Notes under the pieces: generated by a model
What the model was told of the DNA's origin: nothing
Seen by the model: the letters and a program-made list of their open reading frames with translations, nothing else
The model's database searches: none
Shown: positions 3,196 through 50,547 of the stretch, one piece after another
Layout: every line of letters begins with the position of its first letter
Position numbering within the stretch: the first letter of the stretch is position 1
Assembly: GCA_014871385.1 (NCBI GenBank)
Contig: CM026426.1
Coordinates: forward strand, 23,353,070 to 23,417,069
Source of the DNA: Ceratodon purpureus
Lineage: Eukaryota; Streptophyta; Bryopsida; Pseudoditrichales; Ditrichaceae
Length of the DNA: 64,000 nt
Direction: 5' to 3'
Position numbers and translations under genes: made by a program

Positions 3196-3203
3196 CCGTG
3201 GAT
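3196..3203. repeat. Target site duplication, left copy (CCGTGGAT)
   Basis: The octamer CCGTGGAT immediately precedes the left inverted repeat at 3204 and recurs exactly at 17090-17097 immediately after the right inverted repeat. Eight base pairs is the characteristic duplication length of hAT transposons. Confidence 0.9.
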
Positions 3204-3220
3204 CATGGTTGTCATAATGG
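3204..3220 (+). repeat. hAT terminal inverted repeat, left
   Basis: CATGGTTGTCATAATGG matches the reverse complement of 17073-17089 except at the third base. The MITE at 25258-25516 has the same T at position 3 of its left end and the same G at position 3 of its right end, so the difference between the two ends seems to be a family trait. Confidence 0.88.
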
Positions 3221-3344
3221 ACCGACCGTCCGTTAGTCCGTTAGTCCGTCATGGTGACAAGACAGACCCCCGTGTCCGTCATATAAGGGCGTTGACCACT
3301 TGACTCATGGTAAGGGTAAAACGAATTTACCTAGCGCTGAATTA

Positions 3345-3655
3345 GTGCGGGCGCGAGCGCGATTACGGGCGCGAGCGGGTGGGCGCGAGCAGGACGACGG
3401 GCCCGAGCGTCCGCGCGAATGCGATGTCACGAGCGCGCGCTGGAGTGCGCGAGAGCGAGGGCGCGTGCGTCGTTCCGGCCGCGCGCGTGCGCGTGCGAAC
3501 GGGCGCGAGCGTCGCTGCGGGCGCAATCCAATTGACGGTCGCGAGCACACTTATCGGGCGCGGTCATGTGGGCGCGAGCCTGGATCGGGCGCGTGCATTC
3601 GGGCGAGTGCGCTGCATCGGGCGCCGGCGGTCGGCCGCGAGCGCTGCAGGTTAGT
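3345..3655 (+). repeat. GGGCGCG motif array 1 (left subterminal)
   Basis: GGGCGCGAGC-like words recur every 15-30 bases, separated by unrelated spacers, between the left end of the hAT and the 3' end of the kinase-like gene. Open frames here come from the biased composition and are not genes. By analogy with subterminal repeats of Ac/Ds these may be transposase-binding sites. Confidence 0.75.
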
Positions 3656-3835
3656 AGGGAAAGAGCGACATCGGGCAAAATGACAAGAGAGGGCATGTAT
3701 TTCAGAAGAGGGCAATTGGGAAGTGCAATGTTTATTGAAAAGAGTTGCAAAATTGTGGCAGTAAACCACTTACAAAAAATGTCCCCTCTTATGGAGAACT
3801 GAGAATATCACATTGTTGTTACTACTTGCCTACTT

Positions 3836-5404
3836 CTAAATATGTTTGCGATAACAACACTCTGGGATTTGGAAATTGTAGGGAGGGGCTGTTAGAGTAG
3901 CGTGGACCAAACGCAAGGTGGAGCGGCTCTTGGGATCGGGATTTGTGAGCTCCTTCAACGCCACCGCAAATCTAGCCTTCCCCGCTGTATCCTTGAAAAG
4001 GTCGAAGTCGTTCTCGTCCTTCCAAATCATATTTGCTACCACTCCAACCGAGTACGCATCGGCAGCCTGCGTATATAGATGTCTCCTCCTTAGAGTTTCC
4101 AATGAGGTCTCCGAATTTGGCTTACCATAAGTGTACCACAACTCCGGAGCCACAAAACTACCACGTTCCTTGAAGGCTGCCGTACGCGCCTCATCACTTG
4201 GATAACCGTACCTTGAAGGAGTTGTCTCACACACCCGACTTGCAAGGCCCCAGTCGCATACTCCAATGTAAACTTCGCTCACTTTATCCTCTGGGAAGTG
4301 AAGCAAGACGTTTCCCGGGGAGATGTCATTATGCTGCAAATACCCCTTATGGACCCGGTCCATAATACAGATGAGTGCCCAAGCTAGCTTGGCCCTATGG
4401 GTGCGGAAGGCCTTAACACGGTCACGTGTTTCCATGGGCATATCGGTTTGCTTGTGGATGTTACGGTTCTGAGTACCCTCACCGATATTTGAATTGAACT
4501 TGTGCAGAAAATTCTGCAGGCAATCCCCATTCCACCAAAGCGTGTAGGCTTCCATCGTCCAGTCATTGACCGCAAAAAACTTAATAACGCTGGGATGGTC
4601 AATCCTGCAAACCATGGCTTCTATTGATGTCTCGTACCGCTGCTGGGTCTCGTCAGGAGCCTTGGACGTCTTCCCCGCAAAGACACAAGTCTCAGGTATG
4701 GTTTGCATGCCAACAATACATAATTTTCGGACTTTACCATAACCGCCTTCCTTTGTGCCTAACAGCGGAACCAACTTGACCCCTCTTGGGACTCCAACCA
4801 CTGCTCCCCACAAGTACTTCTCCATTGCGCTTTTCAGTCCAGCTTCAAGCCATGGCCTCGCCCTCGTCTTATTATTCGAGAATCTCGCGCACGAATCCTG
4901 GACATATTTGAGCTTCTCTATCTCCTCCTTCTGCGCCCGCGAGTAGCCCTCCTTCGGCTTCTTGTTGACACACTCAAAGACATGCACAATGTTCGTAGTG
5001 TTTGTTGTTATTTGTTGCTCCATCCACTTAGGGAAATGAAAGTAATGAATACAATCATTACATCTCTCGGAAAGGTCCTGCTTCTTCCACAAATACTCTT
5101 CCAAATGGGTCTTCAAGTTCTTAATTCCGGTGTCACCCTTCTCAACGTATGTACCGGTAATCATCTCCCGTTTCCGACATCCGTACCACTCCAAGGCTAG
5201 CTCTCTAACAAATTCCTGGTACCGAGGAGGTGGGTAGTCCAGGTCCCTCTCACTCGCCGACTTCCGGTTCTTCTTTCCCGATGAGCTTGATGACGGATTT
5301 GAGCCTGTAATGGTCGGTGCTGTGGAGGTTGCCATCACATCCTCTACAGGCACATCAAGATCTACGTAGGCAGGGCGTTTCCCGGATCCACGAGAGACCG
5401 ACAT
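3836..5404 (-). CDS. Protein-kinase-like cargo protein
   Basis: The 522-residue frame is intact from an ATG at 5404-5402; it is open another 33 codons upstream, but that part is a T-rich low-complexity leader. The N-terminal half has a Ser-rich linker and a charged domain with a CNDC...H pair. The C-terminal half is a protein kinase fold: a glycine loop GGYGKVRK (about 4735-4765), an AGK lysine, a catalytic loop HNDISPGNVLL (about 4300-4335), DWG in place of DFG (about 4250-4262) and an APE motif (about 4137-4152). The catalytic Asp and Asn are kept, so activity is plausible; HND for HRD and DWG for DFG are unusual. It sits inside the hAT, with a motif array and TATA box upstream. Its role in transposition or in the host is unknown. 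Confidence 0.82.
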   Translation of the reverse strand: MSVSRGSGKRPAYVDLDVPVEDVMATSTAPTITGSNPSSSSSGKKNRKSASERDLDYPPPRYQEFVRELALEWYGCRKREMITGTYVEKGDTGIKNLKTHLEEYLWKKQDLSERCNDCIHYFHFPKWMEQQITTNTTNIVHVFECVNKKPKEGYSRAQKEEIEKLKYVQDSCARFSNNKTRARPWLEAGLKSAMEKYLWGAVVGVPRGVKLVPLLGTKEGGYGKVRKLCIVGMQTIPETCVFAGKTSKAPDETQQRYETSIEAMVCRIDHPSVIKFFAVNDWTMEAYTLWWNGDCLQNFLHKFNSNIGEGTQNRNIHKQTDMPMETRDRVKAFRTHRAKLAWALICIMDRVHKGYLQHNDISPGNVLLHFPEDKVSEVYIGVCDWGLASRVCETTPSRYGYPSDEARTAAFKERGSFVAPELWYTYGKPNSETSLETLRRRHLYTQAADAYSVGVVANMIWKDENDFDLFKDTAGKARFAVALKELTNPDPKSRSTLRLVHATLTAPPYNFQIPECCYRKHI

Positions 5405-5580
5405 AGTTGGAATAATGAACTGGACACACAATAAAAAAAAAAACAAAAGATCCCCCCCACCCAATCTGGTTGCTCCCACTTCCTGCAATTCCAAGCAGAG
5501 CACGTGGAGTCACGGGCTAGGACAAGGAGCCACCTGGAAGAGGAGACTTTGAAAAGTAGAAAATAAGGGTTAAAGGGCGC

Positions 5581-5588
5581 CTTTTATG
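5581..5588 (-). promoter_or_regulatory. TATA box of the kinase-like gene
   Basis: The minus strand reads CATAAAAG, about 180 bp upstream of the chosen ATG and directly downstream of motif array 2. The leader from here resembles the leader of the hAT transposase gene: both contain GCTTGGAATTG or GCTTGAAACTG and then GGGTGGGGGG. Confidence 0.6.
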
Positions 5589-5594
5589 CTCCCC

Positions 5595-5965
5595 TCGGCT
5601 ATTCGCGCCCGTAAGCGCGTACACGCGCGCGCACAGGGCCTCCACACGCGCCTGTCCGCATGCGCCCGTCCGCACGCGCCCGTCCACCGCGTTCGCACGG
5701 GGGACTACCCGCGCCCGTGCGCGCGTGTGCGCGCCCGTGCCCACGTGCGCGCCCGTCAGCCCACATCGGGCGCGCCCGACGCCGCAGGCGCCCGTGCCCC
5801 CGTGCTCGCGCTCGTAACCCTGCGCGCGCCGGTTATCTGTACGCACGAGCACGTTTTACGCGCCCGTGACTGTGCACGCGCCTGTCCCCGCGCACGCGCC
5901 CGACTTCGTGCACTCGCCCGCCTTCCTGTACGCGCCCGTCCCCGTGCACGCGCCCGGATATGCAG
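5595..5965 (-). repeat. GGGCGCG motif array 2 (kinase gene promoter)
   Basis: On the plus strand the array reads CGCGCCCGT at intervals of 10-25 bases, i.e. GGGCGCG on the minus strand. This is opposite to the other arrays, so relative to the gene downstream it runs in the other direction. It ends abruptly near 5965. From 5966 to 6292 I see no gene, only A-rich sequence. Confidence 0.75.
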
Positions 5966-6292
5966 CGTTACATACACTGTACAGGTTCGGTTACGGTATA
6001 CTCGTATATTGAACAGAATACCAAAAAAAATCACTGCGAAATTACTCAATGGAGATATATTAACCGCATTTAGCGCACAAAAAATAATATAGAGCACAAC
6101 CATACAATTCCTTCGAGTGTGAGATAATGAACTAGGTTGACTCTAAGTAACAGTATAAGTCTACGTAATAAGAAGGTGCTACCAAAAAAAAAAAAACATT
6201 AAGAATAACATAGTATTTTTTTTGGGTTTTTAGCCGGTAGATTTTATGGTTAGATTTACTGCTACTTCATGCGCTAAAAAAGTGACCACAGT

Positions 6293-9200
6293 CTAGACTA
6301 TCCTTGCTTTGCGGGGCTTCTTCTTGCGTGAAGATTGTCTTTTCCGAGCCACAGTGGGCCCCAATTCGTGCCGGATTATCACATCTTCGTCATCTGGCGC
6401 CTCATCGCAATCCGGGTCTTCCTCCTCTGAGTGCTCGTTGTCACCTTCATCCTCAGGAGCTCCGACCACTGGAGCTTGTACCTCTCCTTCCACCTCCGAT
6501 GTAATATTGCGCACTTGCATGGAAACTTCACCCGTATTGCCATCTCTGGCACTTACTAGGCGCTTCATAGGCCTCTCCTTTCCGGAATTACCGATGGCTG
6601 TGATGCCATCCTCACTGATTATGCGTGTGCGAACAACCCCAGTTCCAGAAGAAGGCCCCCCTTCAGTGTACCCTGTATAGAATGGAAGGGGATCAGGTCC
6701 ACTTCTTTTGCTTGACTTTCGTGTTCCTCCGCGGGGTTCTTGTGATGGTGGTTTCCTAACAACCTTGTCTGTGGAATTCTTCGCACCACGTTGGGCCACA
6801 TTCTGTACGGCGTCGTCTATAGCTGGCGCCACGGGGACTAGCTTGGCGGTGGAGGCACCACGGCGACTACCACCAGCTCGATTGAGTGGAGGCCTCGCCG
6901 CTGCAGATGATCTAAGGAGTCGAGCTATTTTTGCGCCCATTGAACTTGTGGGCCTCCGAGCCAGGCCTCCATCCACGATTGTATCTGGTTCGATACCCCC
7001 CGTACCAGTGGGTTGCGATGGAGCCACAGTCTGTGCGGGGATTGCGTGCACGGTCCTTCTCTCATGAGCAGGAGGAATCTCTTGAAACAAGCTTGAGTCG
7101 CCTTGTGCCGGAACGGTTCCCCAATTGCCCTCCCCACTAACGAGGCCGGTCCAATGAGGTCCATCTACAGCCCGTCCATGACTTCCATCACCCCCTTCGT
7201 CACTGTCCTCATCATCATCGCCAGCATGGATATCGTTGCCAAGATGGTCCTCGCTGGATGAATCATCTGCAACCCCGTCATTGTTCTCTGGATTGATTTG
7301 GACTGGAATAGCATCTCTTTCGTCACGTGCGTCTCTTCCTTCTGCATTAGCCGCTTCATCAAATACCGGGAGTGTGGGTAATTCGTCTCCATAGATGTTC
7401 ATGTCCGGGTTTCCCTGGTTATATTCTGGTTCATTGTTGAAGTCGTACGCATCACCGTTATCATCGTGGTTGTTGCGGTCACGCGGATTGTTGCGATTAG
7501 CGTCACCGCGCTCGTTGCCATTACCGTCGTTTTGCCCATTCGTGTTAACGTCGACGTTATCATGTCCCCAGACATCATCATCCCCACTACCTGCGTGGTC
7601 AACAGGTATGTAATGATCGTCGTCATCTCCTTCCTCTTCGTTTCGATCTCTCTCCGGATCTGACTCCTCTGACCATGCATTGTTCTCGTACCATCTGAGG
7701 GGGTTGGGCTTTGGGCGTTCGCGGAGGAGTCTGCTATTCGTATAAATGTACACCAAGGCCTCAGACTTCTCCAACCCCAGGCGGTTGCGTACCTTGTTGT
7801 GGACAAACGAAGACATGCTCCAATGGACACACGATGAGGCGGAGTAGACCTGAGATAAAATGCGCTTCGCAATGACTGCCAAGGGCCCCCCTCCAATCCT
7901 CTGCCACCATTGATGGGGTTCCAGATTCAAACTTCTGATATCGATGGTCACTTCGGGGCTGTAAGGGCCACGTCCCTCGTCGAACTCGATCATCTCTTTC
8001 ATAAGAACGGCAAATGGAATTCCCATTTGGCCACCCACCTGACGAAACACCCGATTGAGAGCCGCCTTCGCTTCTCCTATGACTTGTAAGCCCTTATGCG
8101 TTCTGGTCCAAGGGTTCAAGAGCGCCGCGGCATAATGAAGATCGGTATGCATCATGTCCCATCTACGGTCGAACCGCATCTCCATCCTTGTTGCCATGAC
8201 AGGTGGGAAAAAGCAAGGGGATCCTCGGAGATTGTACACGTGATCCTTTAGGTTGCTCATTGTAATCCATGCCTTGCCCATTGCCGGCTCGCTTCCATCG
8301 AAGGTTCTGAGAGCTACTAGGGCTGGTTTCACTAGGTGCATGAAGTTGTCACACTGATGCCAGAACCCATCATCACGAATTGTTTGACGCACTACGCTTG
8401 CGCGTGCATGATTAGGCACCCCCTCGGTTTGGTTGAATAAACCGTCGACATAATCGAACCACTCCGCTGCCATGACCACTTGCTCCAAAGCAAATTTAAC
8501 CTCCATAAGGCGCGCTATCATCAGATAGTTACAAGCGAATCTGGTTTCAGCGGGAACCACCAAGGACAACTTCGGTTCAAATTTGCGGAAAAGGGCCATG
8601 GGAACATGATGTCTCCGAATGTAATGACACACGTGTTTAGCCTTGGCGACCAAATCCTTCACAAAGACTTCCTTGCCCCAGTCCTCCATAAGAAGATCTA
8701 GAATATGGGCACAACAGCCCTGCTTGTACATGTGAGGAAACTCCTCTAGGATATTATCCATGGCGCCAAGCATGTTGGCTGCATTGTCCGTGCAAATCTG
8801 GACAACATTCTGAGGGCCAATTTCTCGAATATATTTCTTCATCTCCCCGGCAATATATCCCATTGACTTCTTCTTGCCAGTCGTATCAACAGACCCAAGA
8901 AATACATCGCCTGCCGGACATACTAGCATGACATTCATCAACGGTCGGCGATTCACATTATCCCAACCATCGGAGCATATGGTAGCCCCGTATAACTCGG
9001 TCGGGGTTTTCGTACGTTCATCAATCTTTGCCTTGATCAACTTCTTTTATTCCTTGATGTGCGTTGTTCGCATCGCGTCATAGGAAGGAGGACCGTAGTT
9101 AAATCCGGCAGCCGCGGTTGTGCTCACCGCCTTAATAAATGCTAGGTGCTTGGCCACGTTGAATGCGACGTTGGCTTCGTAAAAGAAGGATGACCACAAC

Positions 9201-9736
9201 ATGTCCAGCTCCTTCCGCTTCGCGATCTGGAGTGCTTCACTCATGTCCTGTTGCCGCAAGCTCCTAGTGGTATTCGAACTGGCCCTAGTAGGTGCAACAC
9301 TGGAGACATTTCGGTCCTCTTCGGTATCATTATACGAGGGTTTGGATCCACCGTACAAAGTGCCGTGTGTGGAAGCACTGGATGTTCCACGTTGAACTGA
9401 CGCGGGGAACGTTGGCCTGATACCATCCATCTCCTCCTGTGTCAAAGGGCCGGGAATCTTTCGAGCGCAAAACTGAAACTTCCTCTTCACTACGGTAGGT
9501 GCCTTTTGGCAAACCCTCGAGAGATTGGACTGGTCCCAACCATAATGCTGAAAGCACCTAGACTTCACGTACGAAAACTTGGTCCTGCAATACACACATT
9601 GGGCTACTTTATGTGACAGTGACCCTTCCTGGAGCTTGATCGTAAACCATGGTGCCCACTCTCTCGTACCAAGTCTTGGAATGGCTCTAGCCGGAGCAAC
9701 CACTTCAACCGGTTCAACCGCTTCAACCGGATCCAT
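6293..9736 (-). pseudogene. hAT transposase (BED, DUF659, dimerisation domain), one stop
   Basis: Reading from 9736, a BED-like zinc finger (CVYC near 9590, H near 9555) is followed by the DUF659/RNase H-like core. The core has the motif CSDGWDNVNRRPLMN (about 8935-8980), then PAGDVFLGSVDTTGK and CTDNAANMLG. The C-terminal hAT dimerisation region (WWQRIGG, then SQVYSASSCVHWSMSSFVHNKVRNR) lies near 7950-7750. The frame is open over 1,146 codons except for one TAA at 9047-9049, and reading resumes at once in the same frame. An acidic, Asn/Asp-rich tail follows the dimerisation domain. The transposase would cut and paste elements with the 3204/17089 type of ends. The single stop could be a recent mutation. 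Confidence 0.88.
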
Positions 9737-9979
9737 AGTGAATGATTAGGGAAGTATCGGGACTAATAGGACCAGTAGTACCAAAAGATTATTATCTGAA
9801 AAACTTAGTGTGTCTGAAAAGTGCTTGACACATTGATTTATGGAGAGACAAATTTTTACATTCCCCCCACCCAAACCAAGTGTCTCCCCAAGCTAACAGT
9901 TTCAAGCAAGGAGCCCTCAAGGAGACCCAGGACATGAAGCACGCATGGAGGTAAGGTGGATGTCAAATCAAGGGGGCAG

Positions 9980-9987
9980 TTTATATA
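9980..9987 (-). promoter_or_regulatory. TATA box of the hAT transposase gene
   Basis: The minus strand reads TATATAAA directly next to motif array 3. It is about 240 bp upstream of the first ATG at 9736. The leader shares a GGGTGGGGGG tract and flanking bases with the leader of the kinase-like gene. Confidence 0.65.
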
Positions 9988-9999
9988 CTGCCGCCCTCG

Positions 10000-10285
10000 A
10001 CCGGGCGAGTACTGTCCGGACGGGCGCGACCGAACGGGCGCACGTGCACCAGAAGATCGGGCGCGCTCCGACGCGAACGGGCGGGCGCAGGTGGGTGCGC
10101 GCGATTGCAGGCCGCGTGGCGGATAGCGCGCGCGGGGGCAGACGGGCGGGGGCGGGCGTGGTAGGGCGCGGGCGGAGAGCGGCGGGCGAATGCAGGCGCG
10201 GGCGCGCACGGGCGGAGAGCGGCGGGCGAATGCAGGCGCGGGCGCGCACGGGCGGTCGGGTGCGGGCGCGATCGAACGGCCGATA
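10000..10285 (+). repeat. GGGCGCG motif array 3, with a 40-bp exact duplication
   Basis: Dense GGGCG/GGGCGCG words lie upstream of the transposase promoter. A 40-bp unit is duplicated exactly and head to tail at 10171-10210 and 10211-10250, showing recent local expansion. Confidence 0.75.
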
Positions 10286-10614
10286 TCGATTTGGCCACCT
10301 CAATTCAATAAGAAGAAGTAACAACGAGAGGGAAAAATGAATAAAACTTAAATAAATTAAAGTGTGTGAACTACATACACGTGCACATCTACATAAAAAG
10401 GAATCCTATTTAAGTGAAAAGATTGAGAAACATGAGAGTGCGGGAGGACTACCCACCCCATTCACACATGTCTAAGAACTGGAGCAGGCTGTCATCTCGC
10501 CCTTCATGTTTCTGCCCTCCCACTGGAAGGTAAGTCGTTTTAAGCTAACCTCATGCAGTGTTAACTTAAAATATGGAATAAATTTTACTAGTTACTACGT
10601 TAATCCAGTTGAAA

Positions 10615-10835
10615 CCCCGAGCGCGCGCGCAGGCGGCGTGGGGCGCGAGCAGGCGCGCGCGGACGGGTGGGCGCGAGTAGGGCGAGCGCAAGTCGGGGAG
10701 GTCGCGCGCGCGCGTCGAACAAGCAGGCGCGCGCGCGCGAGCAAGTTCAATGGGTCGACTGCGGACGCGATCGCGCGGGCGCCTGCAGGCGCGCTCGGAC
10801 GCGCGCGATCCAACAGGGCGCGCGCAATGAAGTTT
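10615..10835 (+). repeat. GGGCGCG motif array 4
   Basis: A further cluster of GCGCGCG/GGGCGCGAG words. It is followed by a poly-A tract and the A/G-rich 144-bp tandem repeat. I see no gene in 10286-10614. Confidence 0.65.
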
Positions 10836-11016
10836 AAAAGTCGTAAGTTCAAAAAAAAAAAAAAAAATAAAGCTTAAGGGAGAGAATGGACTACACTGAA
10901 ATACCATACATTAGTATGAGAGATTGGAGTACCCAAAAGGAAAATAAAAAAATAAAAAATAAACGAATAGGCATTCGAATTTATAAAATGAAGAAAAAAA
11001 TAAAAAAACAAATTAA

Positions 11017-11800
11017 AGAGCATAGGAGTATTGAATAAAAATAAGGCGGGAGGATGGGGGAGAGGTGGAATTATAATAATGAACAAACGAAATGAGAGAA
11101 GGAATTAAATAAAAGCGTAGAGTTCAACGAAGGGGGGAAAAAAAAAAAAAAAAAGAATTAAAGAGCGTAGGAGTATTGAATAAAAATAAGGCGGGAGGAT
11201 AGGGGAGAGGTGGAATTATAAAAATGAACAAACGAAATGAGAGAAGGAATTAAATAAAAGCGTAGTGTTCAACGAAGGGGGGAAAAAAAAAAAAAAAAAG
11301 AATTAAAGAGCGTAGGAGTATTGAATAAAAATAAGGCGGGAGGATAGGGGAGAGGTGGAATTATAAAAATGAACAAACGAAATGAGAGAAGGAATTAAAT
11401 AAAAGCGTAGTGTTCAACGAAGGGGGAAAAAATAAAAATAAAAAAAATAAAAGAGCGTAGGAGTATTGAATAAAAATAAGGCGGGAGGATAGGGGAGAGG
11501 TGGAATTATAAAAATGAACAAACGAAATGAGAGAAGGAATTAAATAAAAGCGTAGTGTTCAACGAAGGGGGAAAAAAAAAAAAAAAATAAATAAAAGAGC
11601 GTAGGAGTATTGAATAAAAATAAGGCGGGAGGATAGGGGAGAGGTGGAATTATAAAAATGAACAAACGAAATGAGAGAAGGAATTAAATAAAAGCGTAGT
11701 GTTCAACGAAGGGGGGGAAAAAAAATTAAAAATTTAGAGAGTGTGGGAATATAAAATAAAAACAAGGGGATAGGATGGGAGAGTGGTGGAATCATAAAAT
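11017..11800 (+). repeat. About 144-bp tandem repeat, five and a half copies
   Basis: The A/G-rich unit begins near GAGCGTAGGAGTATTGAATA and ends in GTTCAACGAAGGGGG plus a poly-A run of variable length. The marker GGCGGGAGGAT recurs near 11045, 11190, 11335, 11480 and 11623, giving periods of 143-145, and a divergent last copy starts near 11735. The copies are nearly identical except for the A tracts. There is no coding potential. The array lies between motif arrays 4 and 5 inside the hAT. Confidence 0.9.
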
Positions 11801-11819
11801 TTATTTGAGTGATGTTGTT

Positions 11820-12075
11820 GGAGTGATCGGGCGCGTGCAAAACGGGCGCCCGCATTGATGGGCGCGAGCGCGTGCAAATGGAACGAGGGAGTCCGGGGGG
11901 AGAAATTAGTTCCATGATATGGTTGCAGTGCTCGCGCGCGAGTATTGACGGGCGCGCGCAATCGGGCGCGAGCGGAATGCGGGAGACATTGAGGGGGGAG
12001 GAAGAGTTTCAGAATCACGCGACCGTGCGCGCGCGGTTGGTTTGACGGGCGCGATCTGGACGCGCGCGCGGGTGC
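11820..12075 (+). repeat. GGGCGCG motif array 5
   Basis: GGGCGCGAGCG and GGGCGCGCGC words are interspersed with unique sequence, directly after the 144-bp repeat. No gene is supported here. Confidence 0.65.
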
Positions 12076-12129
12076 GGGCGCGTGCAAATGGAAAAGAGGG
12101 TTTGGGGAGAGAAATTAGTCCCTCACTCA

Positions 12130-12405
12130 GGTTGCAGTGCTCGCGCGCGTGCGAAATCGGGCGCGAGCGAAATCGGGCGGGCGCGTGCGAAATCGGGCGC
12201 GAGCGGAACGACGGAGACACCCTCGAGAGTTCCACATTTCAGTATCCGTTCGCACGCTGTTCGTGCGACGGGCGCGAGCAGTTCGCGCGCGCGCGCACGT
12301 ACGGGCGTAATCCTGGGTTTACTCTCGCTGGGGCAGGTTTGCGCGCGCGCGAGTACGCACACTACGGGCGCGCGCAAACGCGCGCGAGCATGCGGGCGGG
12401 TTCAG
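12130..12405 (+). repeat. GGGCGCG motif array 6
   Basis: The words GAAATCGGGCGCGAGCG and GTGCGAAATCGGGCG repeat, followed by further GGGCGCG words. From 12406 to 12817 I see only the downstream region of the RING gene. Confidence 0.65.
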
Positions 12406-12817
12406 AGTTCAAATCCACGTAACATAAAATTCAGTCCATAAGTTAAATACACTTACAATAACTTAAGTTCTCTTACCGTGACTTAAATCCACAGACCACA
12501 TTAAACATTTTGGTGTGCAACAGAGATATTTATACACTTATCATACGATGGAAGGAGATGAGACAACGGGCGGAATGAATAACATGATTGGCAATCAAAT
12601 AAAGGGAGGCCAATGTAATATGTAGGGAGAATAAAAGCGTCTTGAGAATCACGACAATGATTTACAAAAGCAAATTATCATCCATTGTTTGAGTTTAACA
12701 AACATTAAACATGTGAATGTAATCCCAAACCTATCCATACCCCTATGCCATCTACATGTATTTATATTCCGATATCTTTTTACAGAATGTGGACTTCACT
12801 CATGGATCTCCACGACG

Positions 12818-15373
12818 TCACGTGCCCGGTGCAGAGGAACTCGATCCACCCTCATCGTGTCGAGCACGAGAGCTACCTGCTGCACTACTTTCTGCCCCAT
12901 CGTTGGCGATGAGTTTCCGCTTGGCAGAACGGGTTTTCTTCGCTATGCCATCTCCTCCAAGCATTGCTTCCATGAAGTTGTTGTTGCGCATCCGACGGAG
13001 CACTGTTACGACATCCGGAGCCACTTCCGCACATAGGAAATCCACGGCTTGAGTCTTGAACAATATATCCCATTCAGATTCCGCGGTTTGTACTTCCTCA
13101 GCGATCCGGAAATCCTCTGCAGTCATGTCGTGCAACTCCTTGATCTGATCCGCAACCAAGTTCCCTTTGGAATTCCACTTAAATCCAAGAGGATGGGGGC
13201 CGTACTGGAATGTACTAGTTTGAATATCCCAGTACCCATGTAGCACTTGGTAGAAGAAATTCCTCCTTCCCTCGAGTTCGTCCTCCGTCCCGCCCTTGAT
13301 GAGTTCGTGGCAGATCCGTACAATCTCCGCAGGTTTCTGGTCCCACCTCCACTGATCGCTCATTTGTTTAACATAGGACTGGTGCATTCCCATAAGCCAA
13401 TTCCAAATCAAGTCTTCACCCCACTTGTCCGGAAAGTCAGGAGTATTTTCCTCATTTTGCTCCCAATGCGGTGGCATCCAATTCACCAGGCCGAATTGCT
13501 CATAAAAACGCTTGTGTAAGGGGGCCTTACATACTGCACACCGCCGACGTATCAAGGCATGGGAAATCAAGCATTGTGGATGATACATGCATTGACAGGA
13601 TCCCAATGACCAGCCCCCCTCTGGCCCAGATAGATTGGTACAAATTGCACACTTGGTTCCATCCAACACATACTTCGCTGGATTGGGCCAGAGCAAGCTT
13701 GGCTTTGTATTTTTAGGGATCTTCTCATTGGATATGGCAGTCTTGTACTCCCACTCCAACTGCGTCCAATCTATTGCTTTTGCAATCATCGGTATGTCGT
13801 CAGGGAACATTTCATCTGGATCTGTCAACGAGGTAAGTCCGAAATCTCTCTTGGAGTTAAGCTGGAGGTAGTCGGGGTCAATTCTCTTGAACTCATCGTG
13901 CATCTGTCTGAAACGGTCGACGTTCATGATGCATGTAATCTTCCATTGGTTATACTGTCTGCTCATCTCGATCAGATACTTTCTGAGCATCCCGTTGGTA
14001 GCTTGCAATTCGGAGACAGTGGGTTCTGATGGCTGTTGAAATCCCAAAGAGTCCTCCGTCTCTTGAGAATCCACGAACATGATTTGCCGCTGGGGGGGGT
14101 GCATCACTTGACTTGATGACGCGAATGGGATGATTGGCTTACGGGGAACTCGGACCGGGGTATCCTCCAGGAGACCGTGGGTGGCCGATTCAATGATGGC
14201 ATTCACGTCTTCCTCGTTCATTCCAGGGCTACCAGGGATTGGAGCTTGGCTTGCCTCGGGTACGTAAGTCAGAGTCCTCGCAGATTGAAGTTGCGAAATC
14301 TCTTCATTCTGCTTCCGTATAATCTCATTCATCCTATCAGCTTCTTCGTACAAGTTCTGGATCGTCTTCTCCATCTCAGAAATTATTGCATTTTTTCCTT
14401 CCAGCTCCTTCTGCAATGCATCGCCTTGCGGGCCCTCGGCATCAGCGGCGGCTATTGTAGCCTCCAACTCATCTGCAAACCCAGTGTCATCATCTTCCAT
14501 TGCATTGATCGGGCCCGCAATCTGTGGATTCAGTACATGAGGAGCTACATCAACATTGCTCGGGCCCGCAATCTGTGGAACTAATATAGGAGGAGCAACA
14601 TCAACATTGCTCGGGCCCCCGACGATTGCTGGAGGAGCCTGATGAGGAATACCCGGTCCAGTAGGATTTGCAGGCGGTGCACGATTCCTCGTCGACAAAC
14701 AGGCAGCTAGCACAGGATCCTTCTTTTTTAACCGTGTGATTCTAGCACTAGTCGGTGCTCTTGTTTGTCACTGAGCAGGACGGTCTACCGTACCATCAGA
14801 ATCATTATCCTCCCCTGAGTCACTCCATTCAACAGGCGCTTGATCCTCAGGATCATCCAAGTATGCCCAGTCCACACCTGGAAATCTTAGGACCCCTGTA
14901 GGTATTGTTATCTCATGAAGACGCCGTTGGACGCTAGGAGTCAACCGTATGGTCCTCCAATCCACCTGCCTATGAAGCACTACCTCGGCATATACAATTC
15001 TACAAATAAAGAGCGGAACCTCATTTCTATCGTTCATCGCCTGGTTGTATAGGAACTGGTACACCTCCAAACACCGCCTCCCAAACTGACGGTCCTTGCA
15101 ATATTTCATGTTTGCCTTGTTTGAAGTACGATTGTTTTTATGACGGTGCAACGGGAATAACTTCCCAATGTGGCACCATTCAATAAATTGTTCACACGTT
15201 GGTAGAGTCCACGGTTGCGGTGCAGCTTCCCACCCTCTGAATGCCAGCTTTGCTGGATTCAATAAGACGTGGACCCTCTTATGTTGGAGGTTTCCATGCC
15301 TGGCCCGTCCCGCATCCTTTTGCTTTTTCCTCTGCTCTGCCGCCGTGGGCTGATTTGGTTCTTGCCGTTCCAT
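12818..15373 (-). pseudogene. N-domain/coiled-coil/RING cargo protein (copy A), one stop
   Basis: From the ATG at 15373 a basic N-terminal domain (QPWTLPTCEQFIEWCHIGKL, then VYAEVVLHRQVDWRTI) ends at a TGA at 14768-14770. The same frame is open on both sides, continuing through a Pro-rich linker and a coiled coil (about 14290-14420). A RING-type zinc finger follows near 13530-13652, with the pattern CAIC...CQCMYHPQC...CAVC. A conserved WMPPHW segment and a basic Ser-rich tail end it at 12818. Without the stop the protein would be about 850 residues. RING proteins are commonly E3 ubiquitin ligases; that role is inferred. Relatives occur at 42743-45593 and 49056-50547, both beside the second hAT transposase. 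Confidence 0.82.
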
Positions 15374-15647
15374 ATCTGCTCGAGGTAGATCGTTCTTCGA
15401 AGTCTTCCAAAAGTGCAAAATTAAAAGCCTACGACTACCCCAAAACCTCAATCACATTTACAAATTATAAACATTTACAAAATTCTCAAATGTACCACAC
15501 AGAAACCATAGAGTTCTGGAGAACAAAAACAAAGACACGTGTCAGAGTGCTGGGACCCACCTGAGTACCACGCAATAAGCTACCCGGGGGCTGTTGAAGG
15601 CAAAGTGCTCAAAGGGGGGGGAGTGCAAAATGAGGTGGGAAATCGCC

Positions 15648-15655
15648 CTTTTATA
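15648..15655 (-). promoter_or_regulatory. TATA box of RING gene copy A
   Basis: The minus strand reads GTGAGTATAAAAGGGCG, with the TATA box about 275 bp upstream of the ATG. The leader (GCCTTCAACAGCCC and a C tract) is nearly the same as the leader of the coiled-coil gene at 16492. Confidence 0.7.
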
Positions 15656-15975
15656 CTCACGGGCGCCAGGGAACGGGCGCGAACAACCTGCTACGGGCGC
15701 GAGCGGAAACCCGACGGGCGCGCGCGGGCACCGACGGCGGGGTTTCGGCCGTGTATCTGTCCGCGCCCGCGCGGATATCAACGGGCGCTAGCGGTTCACT
15801 GGCGGGTATATGACGGGCGCGCGCGGGCGTCGTCCGGGTAACGAAGGGGCGCGCGCGCGGACGTCGACGCGGGCGCGCGGATATTAGTCGGGCGCGATCC
15901 GAATTGCACGGGCGCGACCGTCGGGCGCCAACGCTGGATGGACGGGCGCGAGCACTGGACCTGGACGGGCGCCAC
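15655..15975 (+). repeat. GGGCGCG motif array 7 (RING gene promoter)
   Basis: ACGGGCGCGAGC and CGGGCGCGCG words repeat about every 20-30 bases, starting right at the TATA box of the RING gene. Open frames in this array are artefacts of composition. Confidence 0.75.
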
Positions 15976-16087
15976 CACAAACTAGAACACTGTTAAAAAT
16001 CAGAGTAACCGAAGAGAACTTGCAAATTCAGAGTTAAAAAAAATACTTTATTTATTTTGAAAATGTATCACTTCATTGTAATGTCGA

Positions 16088-16492
16088 TTACAGTGCCATG
16101 CACTCTAGGTACCGGTCCTCTAGGTCTTTCAAGTGCGTCTCGAAATGGTTCGTTTGAGCACTAGAGACAATATTGGGGACACAAAGTATTGCCATCTCCT
16201 TCTTCAGTTCTTTGATGAGATCGCCAATCTCACAGTCAAGTTCTTCGACAGTCGCTTGGGTTGCCAACTGCTCTTCAGTGGTTGGAGGCAGAGGGCGTCC
16301 ATTCTCTGCGTAGGCCACCAATTTGTCACGGCGAGAGATCCAATCCTCGAAGAACTCAATCAGTTGACGAAGTCGCTCCAGCTTTGACCAAATAACTGTG
16401 TCCGATCGCTGTACAGTGCCCGGTGGAGTGGCGCCATTCGTTAAATTCATAATCAACTTGATTTGTTGGCAATTGCAGGCGTTGGAATTCAT
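16088..16492 (-). CDS. Small coiled-coil cargo protein
   Basis: A 134-residue intact frame begins at the ATG at 16492 and has no recognised family. The N-terminus has CNCQQ. The rest is strongly helical and charged (WSKLERLRQLIEFFEDW, then DCEIGDLIKELKKEM), which suggests a coiled coil or dimerisation role. It is the first gene after the right end of the hAT and has its own motif array and TATA box. A regulatory or accessory role in transposition is a guess. Confidence 0.6.
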   Translation of the reverse strand: MNSNACNCQQIKLIMNLTNGATPPGTVQRSDTVIWSKLERLRQLIEFFEDWISRRDKLVAYAENGRPLPPTTEEQLATQATVEELDCEIGDLIKELKKEMAILCVPNIVSSAQTNHFETHLKDLEDRYLECMAL

Positions 16493-16613
16493 GTTGGACG
16501 GTACAGCGAATGTTGAGGAACCCACCGTAGCACTAAGCAATCAGCTACCCTTGGGCTGTTGAAGGCAAAATGCACAAAGTGGGGGGGGTGCGAAATAAGT
16601 GGAGGAGGGTGGC

Positions 16614-16621
16614 AATTTATA
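16614..16621 (-). promoter_or_regulatory. TATA box of the coiled-coil gene
   Basis: The minus strand reads GTGAGTATAAATTGCC. The GTGAGTATAAA core is identical to that of the RING gene at 15648, and the leader sequences match over about 70 bp, so the two promoters are duplicates. Confidence 0.7.
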
Positions 16622-16624
16622 CTC

Positions 16625-16945
16625 ACGGGGCCGACAGTGTGGGCGCGAGCAGGTTGGGCGCGCGCAGGCTGGTATGGGCGCGAGCACGTTATTCCTAAGC
16701 TACGGGCGCGCGCGACCGTGATCGGGCGAGGGTAATCAAGCGCGCTCACTGTGCGCGCGCGAGACAGACGACGGGCGCGATCACAGCGAGCGCGCGACGG
16801 GCGCGGGCGACCCTGATCGGGCGAGGGTAATCGGGCGCGATCACAGCGCGCGCGCGAGACTAACGACGGGCGCGAACAACCACATATGACCGGCGCGAAC
16901 AGGCGCAAAGACGCGCGCGGACACGACGACGGGCGCCACCCATGG
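16625..16945 (+). repeat. GGGCGCG motif array 8 (right subterminal)
   Basis: GGGCGCGAGC, GGGCGCGATC and CGGGCGAGGGTAATC words repeat, with the GATCGGGCGAGGGTAATC word present twice. The array lies between the first gene and the right end of the hAT. Confidence 0.75.
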
Positions 16946-17072
16946 TAAACAGTAGTAAACTGTGAGGACAGTAATTTTGCTCGCGGTCGGGAGCCCGTCC
17001 GATAAGCGTCCGTCCGATAAACGTCCGTCACGTTCGTCACGTGACAACACGACAATTTTTTGGCCCGTCCGT

Positions 17073-17089
17073 CCATTATGACAACCCTG
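17073..17089 (-). repeat. hAT terminal inverted repeat, right
   Basis: CCATTATGACAACCCTG is the reverse complement of the left end with one mismatch. It is followed by the second CCGTGGAT at 17090-17097. It is preceded by GCCCGTCCGT, which also precedes the right end of the MITE at 25516. Confidence 0.9.
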
Positions 17090-17557
17090 CCGTGGATATC
17101 ACCTGGTTCTCTGGCCCGGATAGATCCGTCGTGTTACTTGACGGCCCCGACTAAGCCTCACGTTTGCATGGCTCATGAAGCGTTTGTATGATGTGACCCT
17201 CAGCTTCACAGGATGATCATATTCCTCCATGTCTGCATGTAGGTCACTCATGAATGGCGCCTCCTATGAGCACGAAGAAGTCACATCGGACGAGACAACC
17301 TGCAAAAAGCGCTATGCACAATCACAAACTCCCAAGTTCCCAAACCATGCTGAATCTGATCTGATTTCCCCCACTTCATAACATGATCCTGGCTGCCACC
17401 GCCAGCCCTTGTCGTCCTCATTAATTTCTCATCTCCTCCTTATGCCCCATTGCAGGACTCACAATGAGTCCATTTTTTTGCCAGACTCTCGCTCTTGCAT
17501 AGCTTGTTTCTTCCTTGCCTTTGCGTTTCTTCGTCGTGTGTTTTACTTCTCCGTAGC

Positions 17558-38261: not shown

Positions 38262-38292
38262 ATGTTGGAGTGGACAAGCGCTGTTCAAAGGC

Positions 38293-38490: not shown

Positions 38491-38570
38491 TAAATTATAG
38501 TTTTTTTAAAACAATTTACCAAGTTTCCTTGCCTTTTTTCTTAATATTCCTAAAGTACCACAGTTGTCAC

Positions 38571-38744
38571 GGTCGTCCGGGACGCTCGGGACGTGGGGAC
38601 GTCCGCGGACGTCCGCCAGCGCCACAGGACGTCTAGTGACTTAGAAAAAAAAAATCACCCACACAGGTTTCATCCCGGGGTGAAACCACACCTTGAACGC
38701 GGGGGAGGGGTTGTGGGGGAGGGTGCGGCCGTCGCCGCAGAGTA

Positions 38745-39296: not shown

Positions 39297-42287
39297 ATGG
39301 CGTCTAGAAGTTACTCACCATGGTATACCGAAGTTCATATGATCGATGTGGAGAAGAAGAAGACTGAGATGGTTCAATGTACGCTATGCAAGAACACTTT
39401 CGCAAAGAGGATTGAGCGGATGCTCAGTCATTTGGGCTATGACAAAGTTCTAGGGGTACGGACTACTGGAGTAGGTCGTTGCACTAATTTGTCACCCGCT
39501 ATACTGTCCTTGTTCAAGAAATGCCGTGGCAAATTCCCCAACGACTCCAGAATATTCATGTCGGAGCAGAGTACTTCCCCCGTGACTCGTGGCAATATAT
39601 CCCCGAGAGTGAACACTCCCATGTTCATGGATGTGGACTCATGCGCTGGATCCCGGGTTTCTACTCTGAAGAATGAACCCGTTTTATTTGGTGAGGGTGT
39701 ACCTTCCATTTCCACTCTTCCAGGGGAAGGTAGTGGACAGTTTCCTCCTTTGAACGCAAAGAGGCAATCTACTCTTCAAGAGGGCTTCGAAGAGACTCAG
39801 AGGCGGGAATGCGACAAAGCATGGGCCACATGTTTTTACGAGAACAGTATCTCGTTTAACGTGGCTCGGAGTGCCTCTTTCAAGGACGCGGTGTTGAAGA
39901 CGTCCAACATAAAGAGATCATACACACCTCCATCTTTCCACCATCTCCGAACAAATTTACTAACCCAAGCAAGGATTGATTTGGAGACTTCCTTGAATGA
40001 TAGGATTTTTCCTAGTGTTAGGAAGTACGGGGGAACGTTGGCCCTCGATGGATGGACTTCTGTAAGCAGTCGCCCTCTAATAAATGCAATGCTGGTATCT
40101 CCTGCTGGTGAGTTATTCTTGGGAGCCGTTGACACGAGTGGGAAAGAGAAGGATGCCGTCTTCGTAGCGACCGTCATTGAGAAGTTTATCCAACAAGTTG
40201 GAGAACATAACATCATTCAAGTATGCTACGATAATGCTCCGGTGATGCTTAATGCCGGAAAGTTGGTCCAAGCACTCTATCCATCCATATTGGTCCAAGG
40301 ATGTGCTGCCCATGCGATGGACCTTTTGCTGGAGGACTGGAGTAAGATGAAGTGGGTGAAGGAGCTCCTAGATCGGGCTAAGAACTTGGTTAAGTTCATA
40401 AAGATAAGGCAAATGCCACTCTCGGTATTTCGAAAGCACGAGGCAAAACTTAGCTTGCTGATGCCTGGTCAGACTAGGTTTGCATCGCACTACATTATGA
40501 TTTCGCGTCTACTGAAGGTTTGAAGAGCATTGGAGCAGAGCGTTGTGGATCCTGACTGGAGAAACTACGAAACGAAAAAAACCTTATCTGCCCATGACAA
40601 AGCGAAGATCTCACGCGATGTTAAGAGGGTCGTCTTGGATGACGTTTTCTGGGAGCAATGTGCAAACTTCAAGTGGATGACGAGTCCCGTTGTATATGCC
40701 CTACTAGAGTTTGATGCAAAGGAATCGGCATTGGGTAAAGCCTACGTCGTTCTCCGCAACCTTGAGAAGCATGTTCGCTCCTTACGCCATGAGCCCTTCA
40801 AATTGGACTCTGACAATGCTGATTTGTGCGAGGACTCATTTTATGAGCGTAAAGCCATGGTCAAATCACCCTTACAGTGTGCTGCTGCGCTTCTAAACCC
40901 TTATCTTATTGACGATGAGGACCTTCACAATGATACTGATGCGATGGCATCGGCGAAGGAGGTCTTGTTGTCGATGGCTCCTCCTACATTGAAGGAAGTG
41001 GTCATTGAAGAGTTCTTCGCATTTTGTGATGCTTATCCTCCATTTCGTGATTTACGTGACTCCTCTAAGTCACAATTGCCGCCTTCTGGTTGGTGGGATA
41101 TATACGGATCCGCTCGTAAATTCATTTCCCCAATTGCAATAAGGATTTTAGCTCAGCCCCTGTCTTCTTCTTCATGCGAGCGGAATTGGAGTAGCTACTC
41201 CTTTGTCCACGACAGGAAGCGAAACCGTTTACTTCCGGAGAGGGCTAAGGACCTCGTGTTTGTGTATACAAATTCCAAGATAATTTCCCAGTCCAAGTTG
41301 AGTGCCTTCGGGAGGTTCTATGGGGAGTTGGAGGGGAAGGAGGATCCAAAGGCCGTGGAAACCGAGGACGTTGACTACTCTAGTGAGTCTGATGTTGATG
41401 TACCCTTCGACGATCTATCAATTGACCCCCCCATTGACAACCCAGTCGACGACCTTGAACTTTCACCGAAAGGAAAATCCCGTTGTTCTCCTGCGCCAAT
41501 GGAGCGTGCTTTCGAGTATGATGATGTCGAAGAAGAAGGTACCAACGAGGAGGATACGATTCCTCTTGCTTCTCTTCTGAATGGAGACGGTTTACTAAAC
41601 AGTGATAAGATTCTGCGGGGAGGATCATCTCATACTACCGTGGGTTTGGTCATACCAAAGAAAGAAGAAGACCCCACCCTTGATACTTTGAAGGTTCTTT
41701 CTCCAGACTTCAACCGCCTAAAGGACGATATGGTTCCACCCACTACAAAGGAGGAGGTGCCCGTACCCGTACCCGGTGCGTCTCGGACATTGTTTGGAAC
41801 CGCAAAGACTAGGGTCCAAGTTGGTGGGTTCGAATCGTCCACGAGGTTGGTTGAGTTGTCTAAAAAAATGAAGGCAGATGCTAAGGCTGCTGAAGTAACG
41901 GAGAAATGTAGGAAGAGATTGGTCCGAACCCGTCAAGCGGACCGGGGCATCCTCTCTACTGATGATGGACTTCCAATTGGGCATCTCTTTGGGCCGAAGT
42001 TGGCTTTGGGAAAACCGGACATATTTCCTGAGAAACCCCCTGCTAGAGCCATGTCCAAGCAAAAGGCTGTAGACAAGACTTAGAAGGTGTTGGCTTTCAA
42101 TCCTGGGAAGCCAAAAACTCCTTTGGATGACCCGAATGGCCCAAAGAAATTCATGAACCCATTCGAGTCAAAGAAGAAGACTAAGGGGAGGGTGAAGAAG
42201 GTACGCGAGAGCGATGGCGATGACGATGACGATTCTTCCGGCCCTAGTGGGGCCGAAGTGAAGGACGACAGCGATTATGTGGCATGA
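39297..42287 (+). pseudogene. Second hAT transposase, two in-frame stops
   Basis: From the ATG at 39297 a BED-like finger (CTLCKNTF, then HLGYDKV) is followed by the DUF659/RNase H core (LDGWTSVSSRPLINAML near 40045, then PAGELFLGAVDTSGK and CYDNAPVML). The dimerisation domain follows near 41090-41290 (WWDIYGS, SSSCERNWSSYSFVHDRKRNR). One frame runs the whole length, broken by a TGA at 40521-40523 and a TAG at 42081-42083, ending at TGA 42285-42287 after an acidic tail. It is a distant paralogue of the 6293-9736 transposase, so the two elements belong to related but distinct families. The aligned residue at the first stop is Lys in the other copy. Confidence 0.87.
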
Positions 42288-48091: not shown

Positions 48092-48179
48092 AAGGAAAGG
48101 AGGGGGGAGAGTAGGGGAGGAGAGGGAGGGAGGAGAGGAGAGAAAACACAAGGAGAGTAGACCCTCCCCCCCGCTCCCC

Positions 48180-48690
48180 ACAGCCGACCCCGCGGTCGGG
48201 GGCCGTCGCCCACGGCCGTCAGATCTTCTCCGCCAAGAAGATCCTACAGCTGCGGGCGACCGCCCCCGACCGCGGGGTCGGCCGAGGACGTCCGCGTAGA
48301 CGGCCAAAGCCAACCCCACGGTCGGGGGCCTCGCCGCGGGGTCGACGAGGGCCGTCCCGGCGCTTGGCCTTGGCCGTCGGCGTGGACGGCCGTGGCCGAC
48401 CACACGGTCGTAGCCCCCCAATCGCGGGGTGGGCCACGGCCGTCCCCGGGGTCGGCCTTGGCCGACCACGCGGTCAGGGGGTCCGTCCGCGTGGTCGGTC
48501 GTCCCGACAGCGGGGCGGCGGTTCACCGACAAACCCGCAGGGAGGAGTCGCGGCCGCAAGACTCGTCACGACCGTGCTCCTCAACGGCCACAACCGGTCC
48601 CGCGTCGGACCACTTACGGCCGTTGGATTCTCCATCGGCAGAGATCCATCGGCCGTAGGGGGCCCGCCGTTTGAGTTAAGCGGCCGTCTA
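48180..48690 (+). repeat. GGCCGTC/GGTCGG motif array
   Basis: Words such as GACGGCCGTGGCCGACC, GCGGGGTCGG and CGGTCGGGGGCC recur about every 20-30 bases, ending just before a TATA box. It resembles the block at 38690-39000 and plays the same positional role as the GGGCGCG arrays of the first hAT. Pro/Arg-rich open frames on both strands are artefacts. Confidence 0.75.
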
Positions 48691-48704
48691 GGGGTTCGAG
48701 CAGG

Positions 48705-49055: not shown

Positions 49056-50547
49056 ATGCCTCAAAACGACCGGGGAGGATCGTCAACTCCAAAAAGGAAA
49101 CACCCCTTGGATCCATACGCTACGAATGATCCTGATTGCGTAGCGGAGTTTGGATGGGAGGAGGAACCATCACCATGGAGGATGGTTACTTGCAAGGAAT
49201 ATGTGAAGATGAAGCACCTCCTGAAGTTGATCCCAGTACGTCTACGTACTGAGGCTGCGGAGAAACAGGCAAAACGGGTTGAGATCAGGGTCGACAATTG
49301 TGAAAGTAATTATTTTTCTATTCGATATAACAAGATATTTCAGGCAGCACAAATCTAGAACTCCCGACCCCATATTATGTTGTATTCGAATATGGCAATG
49401 GTGTGGGCGGAGATAGTCTTACACAAGAGGGTCGACTGGCGCACAATCTCGGGCCTGAGGACAGATAGAATGAACAGAGAAAACATGGATCTTGACACAG
49501 CCTGGGTTGGACATAGCGATTGTCCTCCACTACTTATTTCAAACCGTCAAAGTCCACCAGCACAAGATGCTGGAATACAAACTCTAGCCATCGAATATAA
49601 TGTCGAAGAATAGGAGAGACGTTGTTCAAGCGATGATAATGATGACAACTATCGAGGACGTCGCTCAAACAAAAATTCTAGGAATCGCAGAGGGCATCGT
49701 GTAAGCGAGTCATCGCGTACCAACCATCAGGAGTATGGACAATGCTCTGCCCACGAGGGACACCGTTCGCGAGAACATCAAGATGTAGGACACCACGAAC
49801 AAGGCCATGGCTACGGGGAACCCGAAGGAGCGCAATTATCCTTTGACTTCACGGATAATGCGTATGGCCCGTATGGGGGACGAACTTGGCCAGATTATGC
49901 AACGGGATCAAGATACTATACAGACGGCTGGTTGGAAATACTGAGTCCTTTAAGGAGTGCTAGTCCGCGCCATCGAACATTTGCGAGAGACGTACCTCAC
50001 AATTATTCCCCATCGCGAAGAAGTTACAATAAGACTGGGACGTGATGATTACGCAACTCCCCCTCCATACCGAGGATATGGTGGTCATGCTACCCCATTT
50101 GCCCTTTTTGCAGAAGATGATTACAGATCATCTTCGCAGACTCCGCCTGGAATATTTCCTCCACCTCTAGGTTATCACAACGACGATACTCATCACAATA
50201 GCGGAGAAAACCGCAACGTACTTCATCCCGATGACAGAGTACCACCTCCTCCTTTTGGATAACCTCCCGGTCGAGTTGTAAGAGATAGCTATTTTGAGGA
50301 AGAATTAGAGTTGGAGCGGACAAGGCAAAATTATGTACTACAGATGGAGAATCATGCGTTTCACCTTAGACGGGATAATCGAAGATTGATGGAGGAGAGA
50401 GAGAGACTTTTGAGAGCCTCGACAGATTCTACAGGGCACGGGTCACAAGAAACGTATGATCGAGGAGGTCCAAGCGAACTCCCCAATGATGGGAACTGTT
50501 ATCATCCATATGACTACAATGGATTAGGGTGGAGGGGAGACTATTAG
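49056..50547 (+). pseudogene. N-domain cargo protein (copy C), decayed, no RING seen
   Basis: From the ATG at 49056 the N-domain is recognisable (PWRMVTCKEYVKMKHLLKLI, then VWAEIVLHKRVDWRTISGL), matching copy A. In-frame TAGs stand at 49356-49358 and 49611-49613. The frame continues with an Arg/Ser/His-rich segment and shifts by one base near 50040. It then meets TAA at 50260-50262 and ends with a coiled coil (FEEELELERTRQNYVLQM, then RRLMEERERLLRAS). No RING finger follows before 50547, so this copy is a shorter family member or has lost its 3' end. Confidence 0.72.

Follow-up and report, generated by a model that had tools for sequence, protein, structure and literature searches.

A multi-gene hAT element of Ceratodon purpureus with kinase-like and RING genes behind family-specific motif arrays, and a diverged second family

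Can a hAT transposon keep a set of additional genes, and what would these genes do for it? hATs are usually regarded as one-gene, few-kilobase cut-and-paste parasites. The question is raised by a stretch of 64,000 nucleotides from Ceratodon purpureus (assembly GCA_014871385.1, contig CM026426.1, positions 23,353,070 to 23,417,069, forward strand; the window, hereafter), in which a preliminary description made from the sequence had placed a hAT element with a kinase, a RING protein and a coiled-coil protein. This element, which we call F1, occupies window positions 3204-17089 as one hAT unit with an 8-bp duplication outside both ends, and its genes (transposase, kinase-like, RING-variant and small) are all co-oriented, on the minus strand in the window. 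We found that F1 moves with these genes, that a diverged family of the same genome, F2, has homologous kinase-like and RING genes, and that each family has its own GC-rich motif ahead of its genes. The likeliest reading of the accessory genes and arrays, to which we give a probability of roughly 45%, is a self-encoded regulatory or anti-silencing system.

We searched the genome (362.5 Mb in 151 contigs), in which the window is C6:23353070-23417069 on C6, a contig of 110.5 Mb; the match lists are incomplete, and counts taken from them are lower bounds. The perfect duplication and the inverted ends matching at 16 of 17 bases, both reported earlier for this element, were confirmed (Table 1), and the terminal match extends to 18/20 over the first 20 bases. 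Using [T/C]AGNGNNG as the hAT terminal inverted repeat consensus, CAGGGTTG fits at the F1 right end (window copy) and at both ends of an F2 copy (C12, see below); the F1 left end (CATGGTTG) and the left end of the window's F2 copy (CACAGTTG) depart from it. The starts of the listed genome matches to the left end fall between the first F1 base and a point 8 bases outside it; the listed right-end matches run to the last F1 base or at most 7 bases beyond, except for one short match of 35 bases (first-look candidates, a loose count, numbered 413 for the left end and 371 for the right end).

F1 is a large family, of which ten copies were fetched; they are the top-ranking left-end matches apart from the window's own, and their cargo played no part in the choice. 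Six of them have the two ends and the four genes and are flanked by a perfect 8-bp duplication of their own, which agrees with the claim that the kinase, the RING and the small protein are carried as a unit. The seven two-ended copies (the window's and these six) are 13.9-15.6 kb long and spread over five contigs with the same gene set, and all seven have perfect 8-bp flanks that differ from copy to copy (CTTTTCAA, CGTAGTAT, GTCGGAAT, TGAGGGAC, CCTTGCTT, TCCGTGAT and CCGTGGAT). As for the other four, the first keeps kinase, transposase and RING, the second keeps the kinase, the third has its kinase beyond a large insertion, and in the fourth the kinase is reduced to its last 30 residues; the whole kinase is matched in nine of the ten, in one of these in pieces. 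The cp11 locus contains long N runs. That other copies of these ends might always lack the cargo does not hold. Whether the cargo sits mainly at loci without the ends was checked in part: a listed kinase lies 602-689 bp inward of at least 23 of 40 listed F1 left ends, and at least 39 of 83 listed F1 kinases have a listed F1 end.

Empty sites, which the preliminary description had proposed to look for, exist for two copies. Copy cp25 is inserted in an F2 transposase gene, and its joined flanks (with one duplication copy) align 600/600, ungapped and at 98%, to the uninterrupted gene. For the window copy, the joined flanks gave six matches: two uninterrupted C6 sites over all 300 bases (98% and 94%), two further uninterrupted sites (77% over bases 45-300), and the window's own halves. 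Given seven perfect duplications and two empty sites, F1 moves as a single unit of 13.9-15.6 kb.

With the F1 proteins as queries, three stretches (transposase, RING and N-domain) were identified at 39-50 kb of the window, which constitute an F2 copy; no right end of this copy was found within the window. The one two-ended F2 copy (C12) is 16,644 bp long, has the perfect duplication TTCTACAC on both sides, and contains an intact kinase frame (L044), a 1,060-codon RING frame and a 537-codon fourth-gene frame. The C8 F2 copy has a transposase frame of 1,032 codons and a RING frame of 1,060 codons, its kinase and fourth gene being frame-broken. Compared with F1, the F2 transposase is 33% identical over 742 amino acids (aa), the regions of the RING protein are 31-32% identical, and the F2 kinase (the intact 491-aa protein from C12) is 29% identical over 387 aa (E 6e-40); that all three proteins have diverged to a similar degree accords with a common origin of the set as a whole. 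The F2 genes are also linked across the genome: for 74 of 106 listed RING matches, a kinase is also listed 6-20 kb away in the expected direction (median 9.6 kb), as compared to 1 on the wrong side and a mean of 0.66 (maximum 4) in the shifted control, counting all 106 RING rows and 150 of 152 kinase matches. The product of the fourth F2 gene has the N-terminal domain that is also found in the RING proteins (26% over 73 aa, E 3e-7), and the F1 134-aa gene has no homologue among the F2 proteins compared. Gene order differs between the families, as does orientation (all co-oriented in F1, alternating in F2). We infer that one multi-gene hAT lineage has split into the diverged families F1 and F2 and that its gene set would have descended from a single multi-gene ancestor; because so diverged a family has homologous kinase and RING genes, the set looks like an old part of the lineage and not a one-off capture. 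The earlier idea of an accessory system gains support because the diverged F2 keeps the same genes; the roles proposed for it in the preliminary description (in transposase stability, host response or target choice) are putative.

As expected from the preliminary description, the transposase is of hAT type: DUF659 is detected by Pfam in the window copy, DUF659 and Dimer_Tnp_hAT score above the Pfam cut-offs in F1 L025, and DUF659 and hATC likewise in F2 L041 (a BED zinc finger reaches 13.9 bits versus a cut-off of 20.6 in F2, and none was found by Pfam for F1). The gene in the window is no longer intact: a TAA stop at 9047-9049 interrupts its frame, and its hATC motif is altered, reading SSCVHWS and not SSCERNWS as in all seven other F1 copies showing the region. 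In the kinase-like protein, K245, HND..N365, DWG and the Gly-loop are invariant between F1 and F2; catalytic Lys, H-x-D-x4-N and D-x-G are kinase catalytic positions. From these positions and one score at the Pfam cut-off we weakly assign it as a predicted kinase; out of 45 pattern matches to it in viral contigs, none was confirmed as a relative.

The RING claim also stands: the F1 protein has the eight-ligand pattern C-x2-C-x14-C-x-C-x2-H-x2-C-x10-C-x2-C, which aligns with the F2 RING, and the window gene is stopped in frame at 14768-14770. Cys at ligand 4 is found in all eight F1 copies showing the region, window included. The F2 RING passes Pfam as zf-RING_2 (31.6 versus a cut-off of 27.3) and matches the RING-H2 domains of Arkadia and RNF38 in PDB (best E 8e-5). 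As both the F2 RING and the F1 variant have the eight zinc ligands, the two proteins are predicted ubiquitin ligases. What stands of the coiled-coil protein is the 134-aa open reading frame (ORF), which is matched in other copies. RING-like ORFs were also seen in other DNA adjoining F1 copies (L019:2040-3503 and L009:6033-6956, minus), the one in L019 having a Cys-for-His RING variant resembling that of F1. Both match the F1/F2 RING weakly (hhalign E 2e-4 and 5e-4, probability 46 and 32%) and were rejected as family members, and their remaining parts, with E 0.022 and 0.38 against the N-domain, were not counted as family either.

The non-coding parts of the two families carry different 7-mers, GGGCGCG in F1 and GGCCGTC in F2. 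The window F1 copy contains 57 GGGCGCG and the other 50 kb of the window none; the two-ended F1 copies contain 57-74 each, with none in coding sequence in all seven (32-39 expected if evenly spread). In the window copy each gene has 6-11 of these motifs within 600-800 bp upstream, and a TATA-like box lies 22-43 bp nearer the gene than the array for all four genes; a count of zero upstream of the cp13 transposase arises because a 400-bp insertion shortens the gene match. The F1 arrays are irregular short tandem repeats with a CpG observed/expected ratio of 1.5-1.66, versus 0.74-0.87 in the F1 genes, and there are clusters next to both F1 ends too, no more than about 0.4-0.5 kb inward. The C8 F2 copy contains 99 GGCCGTC, none of them in the four gene spans (set by hand from this copy), with clusters upstream of all four genes. 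There is no GGCCGTC in the F1 element and one GGGCGCG in the F2 copy. In both F1 and F2, each of the four genes has a cluster of the family's own GC-rich 7-mer upstream of it.

If the accessory genes and arrays form a regulatory or anti-silencing system, one of the element's own proteins, either the RING/N-domain protein or the transposase, would bind DNA at the 7-mer arrays, and this binding would keep the element's own promoters open, as VANC frees VANDAL elements from silencing. The RING protein, as a ubiquitin ligase, and the kinase would be brought to the arrays or to the transposase, where they might disable host silencing factors or tune transposase activity; the outcome would be a very large element still able to amplify. 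A stronger version, which we hold to be doubtful, is that F1 and F2 represent an undescribed autonomous four-gene hAT lineage with its own phosphorylation and ubiquitination machinery, aimed by the arrays and escaping silencing, an independent counterpart of VANDAL/VANC that would predate the 33% transposase split.

The odds of the rival explanations are not mutually exclusive. The main rival, a tentative one in our estimate, is that the kinase and the RING protein regulate the transposase (its stability, nuclear entry or excision timing), the arrays being common promoters that co-express the four genes. In its favour, each F1 gene in the window copy is preceded by a cluster of the one motif and by a TATA-like box, and kinase and RING are conserved beside the transposase in both families; by itself it does not explain why the arrays are family-specific. 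We consider it unlikely that the arrays are transposase binding sites only, i.e. subterminal repeats spread inward, with the kinase and RING in an unrelated role such as DNA repair or cell-cycle timing. hAT transposases do bind subterminal repeats, and the clusters near both F1 ends would suit this; most clusters, however, are internal and stand ahead of every gene in both families.

The state of the F1 genes bears on whether they are passive cargo, i.e. the product of a chance (Pack-type) capture of kinase and RING genes from the host. In cp25 each of the four genes has an open frame (134, 850, 1148 and 522 aa). Among at least 83 listed F1 kinase matches (from 1,367 first-look candidates), 74 have no internal stop, and 20 share an identical bit score, which suggests that the kinase copies spread recently. 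Within F1, the ratio of nonsynonymous to synonymous divergence (dN/dS; mean dN / mean dS) is 0.44 for the small gene (21 pairs), 0.49 for the transposase (28 pairs), 0.53 for the kinase (45 pairs) and 0.72 for the RING gene (28 pairs), and the cargo thus appears about as constrained as the transposase, with RING less so. Gene-fragment capture is frequent in plant DNA transposons according to the available parts of two sources (PMC6446971, PMC8903248), but passive cargo is an improbable account of a gene set shared by two families with 33% identical transposases, with most listed frames free of stops inside the match, promoter arrays ahead of each gene and dN/dS below 1; a lone capture of kinase or RING is rejected. 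An artefact, whether mis-assembly or unrelated elements stacked in one hAT, has almost no probability left even in a genome region full of nested elements, refuted as it is by seven two-ended copies with the same genes and distinct duplications on five contigs and by the empty sites.

Several observations weigh against a regulatory or anti-silencing system. At the level of genes, a full set of four open frames is present in one of the seven two-ended F1 copies, the other six (window included) each having at least one broken frame; the RING dN/dS indicates mild constraint only; and the F2 transposase is known from copies other than the two-ended C12 copy. A third hAT transposase (L016/L047, adjoining cp15), 44% identical to that of F1, has no kinase or RING in about 7.9 kb, read on one side of one degenerate copy. 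At the level of proteins, the Pfam Pkinase scores lie at or below the cut-off of 31.7 bits (30.5 in the window copy, 31.7 in F1 L025, 24.0 in F2), the kinase has no match in PDB by sequence and profile search, and its structure prediction from a 7-row alignment (one row duplicated) had a pLDDT (predicted local distance difference test) of 34 and was unused for fold search. The F1 RING in the window copy has no Pfam RING match, and no DNA-binding domain was seen in the RING protein. As for the arrays, both 7-mers were chosen after inspecting the sequences, and the clusters near the ends may be no more than sites to which the transposase binds. The window's own worn F2 copy contains 19 GGCCGTC with 6 elsewhere in the window, and five other fetched loci (43.8 kb, some with F1 pieces) contain 36 GGGCGCG and 5 GGCCGTC, unsorted by source. 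In F2, a TATA-like pattern is present for the transposase, the kinase and the fourth gene (for the last, far from the array), and none was found upstream of the RING gene.

Table 1. Features of the F1 element and of the F2 copy in the window (positions count from the first base of the window).
Feature	Position	Strand	Remarks
F1 target-site duplication, 8 bp, left copy CCGTGGAT	3196..3203	.	identical flank; empty-site paralogues
F1 left terminal inverted repeat CATGGTTGTCATAATGG	3204..3220	+	end comparison; genome matches begin here or up to 8 bases before
F1 left subterminal GGGCGCG cluster	3349..3593	+	8 motifs
F1 kinase-like gene	3836..5404	-	522 aa, open in window copy
Motif cluster upstream of kinase gene	5604..5955	-	11 motifs (10 in this orientation); TATA-like box 184 bp before ATG
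F1 hAT transposase gene (DUF659, hATC)	6293..9736	-	broken in window copy; open frame of 1148 aa in L025
Motif cluster upstream of transposase gene	10022..10270	+	6 motifs; TATA-like box 249-251 bp before ATG
Further F1 motif cluster	10641..10822	+	3 motifs
A-rich tandem repeat between transposase and RING genes	10993..11799	.	145-bp unit, 5.6 copies
Further F1 motif cluster downstream of RING gene	11829..12372	+	11 motifs
F1 RING gene	12818..15373	-	N-terminal domain common to F2, middle region, C4HC3 RING variant; open frame of 850 aa in L026
Motif cluster upstream of RING gene	15675..15950	+	10 motifs; TATAAA 282 bp before ATG
F1 small gene (coiled-coil protein of the preliminary description)	16088..16492	-	134 aa
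Motif cluster upstream of small gene	16641..16874	+	8 motifs; TATAAA 129 bp before ATG
F1 right terminal inverted repeat	17073..17089	-	CAGGGTTGTCATAATGG on minus strand; end comparison
F1 target-site duplication, 8 bp, right copy CCGTGGAT	17090..17097	.	identical flank
F2 left end CACAGTTGTCA...	38559..38575	+	26 of 66 listed match rows start at 38563
F2 transposase gene	39298..42284	+	frame interrupted in window copy
F2 RING gene remnant	42746..45557	-	RING-H2 above Pfam cut-off; frame disrupted; residues 1-123 not found
F2 GC-rich array upstream of fourth gene	48178..48700	.	
Fourth F2 gene (N-domain protein)	49057..50544	+	broken in window; 537-codon open frame in many other listed copies

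The A-rich tandem repeat listed in Table 1 varies in copy number and length among F1 copies. Other features of the window include a right end resembling that of F1 at 25494-25516 (GTCCGTTATGACAACCCTG), for which no matching left end was found among four pattern matches, and a Pre-SET domain at 36792-37999, minus strand (PF05033, E 6.5e-11), a fragment of a SUVH/SUVR-like methyltransferase gene that is 63% identical to an ORF in a C11 locus. Positions 37400-38288 have at least 8 matches elsewhere in the genome, among the matches listed. CACTA-type remnants lie at 62205-62702 minus (Transposase_21, E 1e-24) and 52079-52900 minus (DUF4216 match below the cut-off), and ORFs at 1799-2686 plus resemble CACTA remnants by eye (no Pfam match for 1799-2341).

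The two families differ in where they are found. C6 makes up 30.5% of the genome, and the listed F2 matches are concentrated on it (69 of 106 RING rows and 105 of 150 kinase rows), whereas the listed F1 kinases are not (30 of 83). C. purpureus is described, in the part of the source available (PMC8000587), as having a 360-Mb genome with U and V sex chromosomes of more than 100 Mb each, about 30% of the genome; C6 is possibly a sex chromosome. With their kinase-like and RING genes, F1 and F2 indicate that hAT elements can maintain a multi-gene programme at 14-17 kb, and their arrays allow a direct test of whether a transposon-borne kinase/ubiquitin system acts on silencing. If the anti-silencing reading were true, plants would have a second, independent case of anti-silencing that is sequence-specific, and there would be a way to study how transposons come to fill a very large chromosome that may be a sex chromosome.

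No earlier report of such elements was found in the titles and abstract starts of the open-licence literature. Like other members of the hAT superfamily (Ac, hobo, Tam3, DUF659-type plant hATs), F1 and F2 have DUF659 and hATC, short CAGGGTTG-type ends and 8-bp duplications; unlike them, they have four genes and are 14-17 kb long. The plant hATs of one survey (276 sequences) measured 7,144 bp at most, and Physcomitrella yielded none (PMC6027215). Large size and several extra ORFs are shared with Polintons/Mavericks, Teratorn and large Helitrons (Polintons are typically 15-25 kb; PMC6431247, available in part), from which F1 and F2 differ in their hAT ends and transposase, with no viral-type gene noted among their genes; the available text of that giant-transposon review has no whole-word occurrence of hAT or kinase. 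The F2 RING matches the RING-H2 ubiquitin ligases Arkadia and RNF38 in sequence and is unlike them in its shared N-terminal domain and its location in a transposon. MuDR (mudrA and mudrB) and other multi-gene Mutator-like elements (MULEs) likewise combine a transposase with an accessory gene (PMC6446971, in the part available), in a different superfamily and with different accessory proteins. In the available parts of PMC5735166 and PMC10398659, VANC of VANDAL binds short motifs arrayed in the non-coding parts of its own family, leading to methylation loss, and related VANDAL families use different motifs. F1 and F2 differ from this system in having a hAT and not a Mutator transposase, kinase-like and RING accessory genes, GC-rich motifs and an anti-silencing role that is putative, and resemble the VANDAL/Hiun MULEs of Arabidopsis in having several genes per element and family-specific motif arrays in their non-coding parts.

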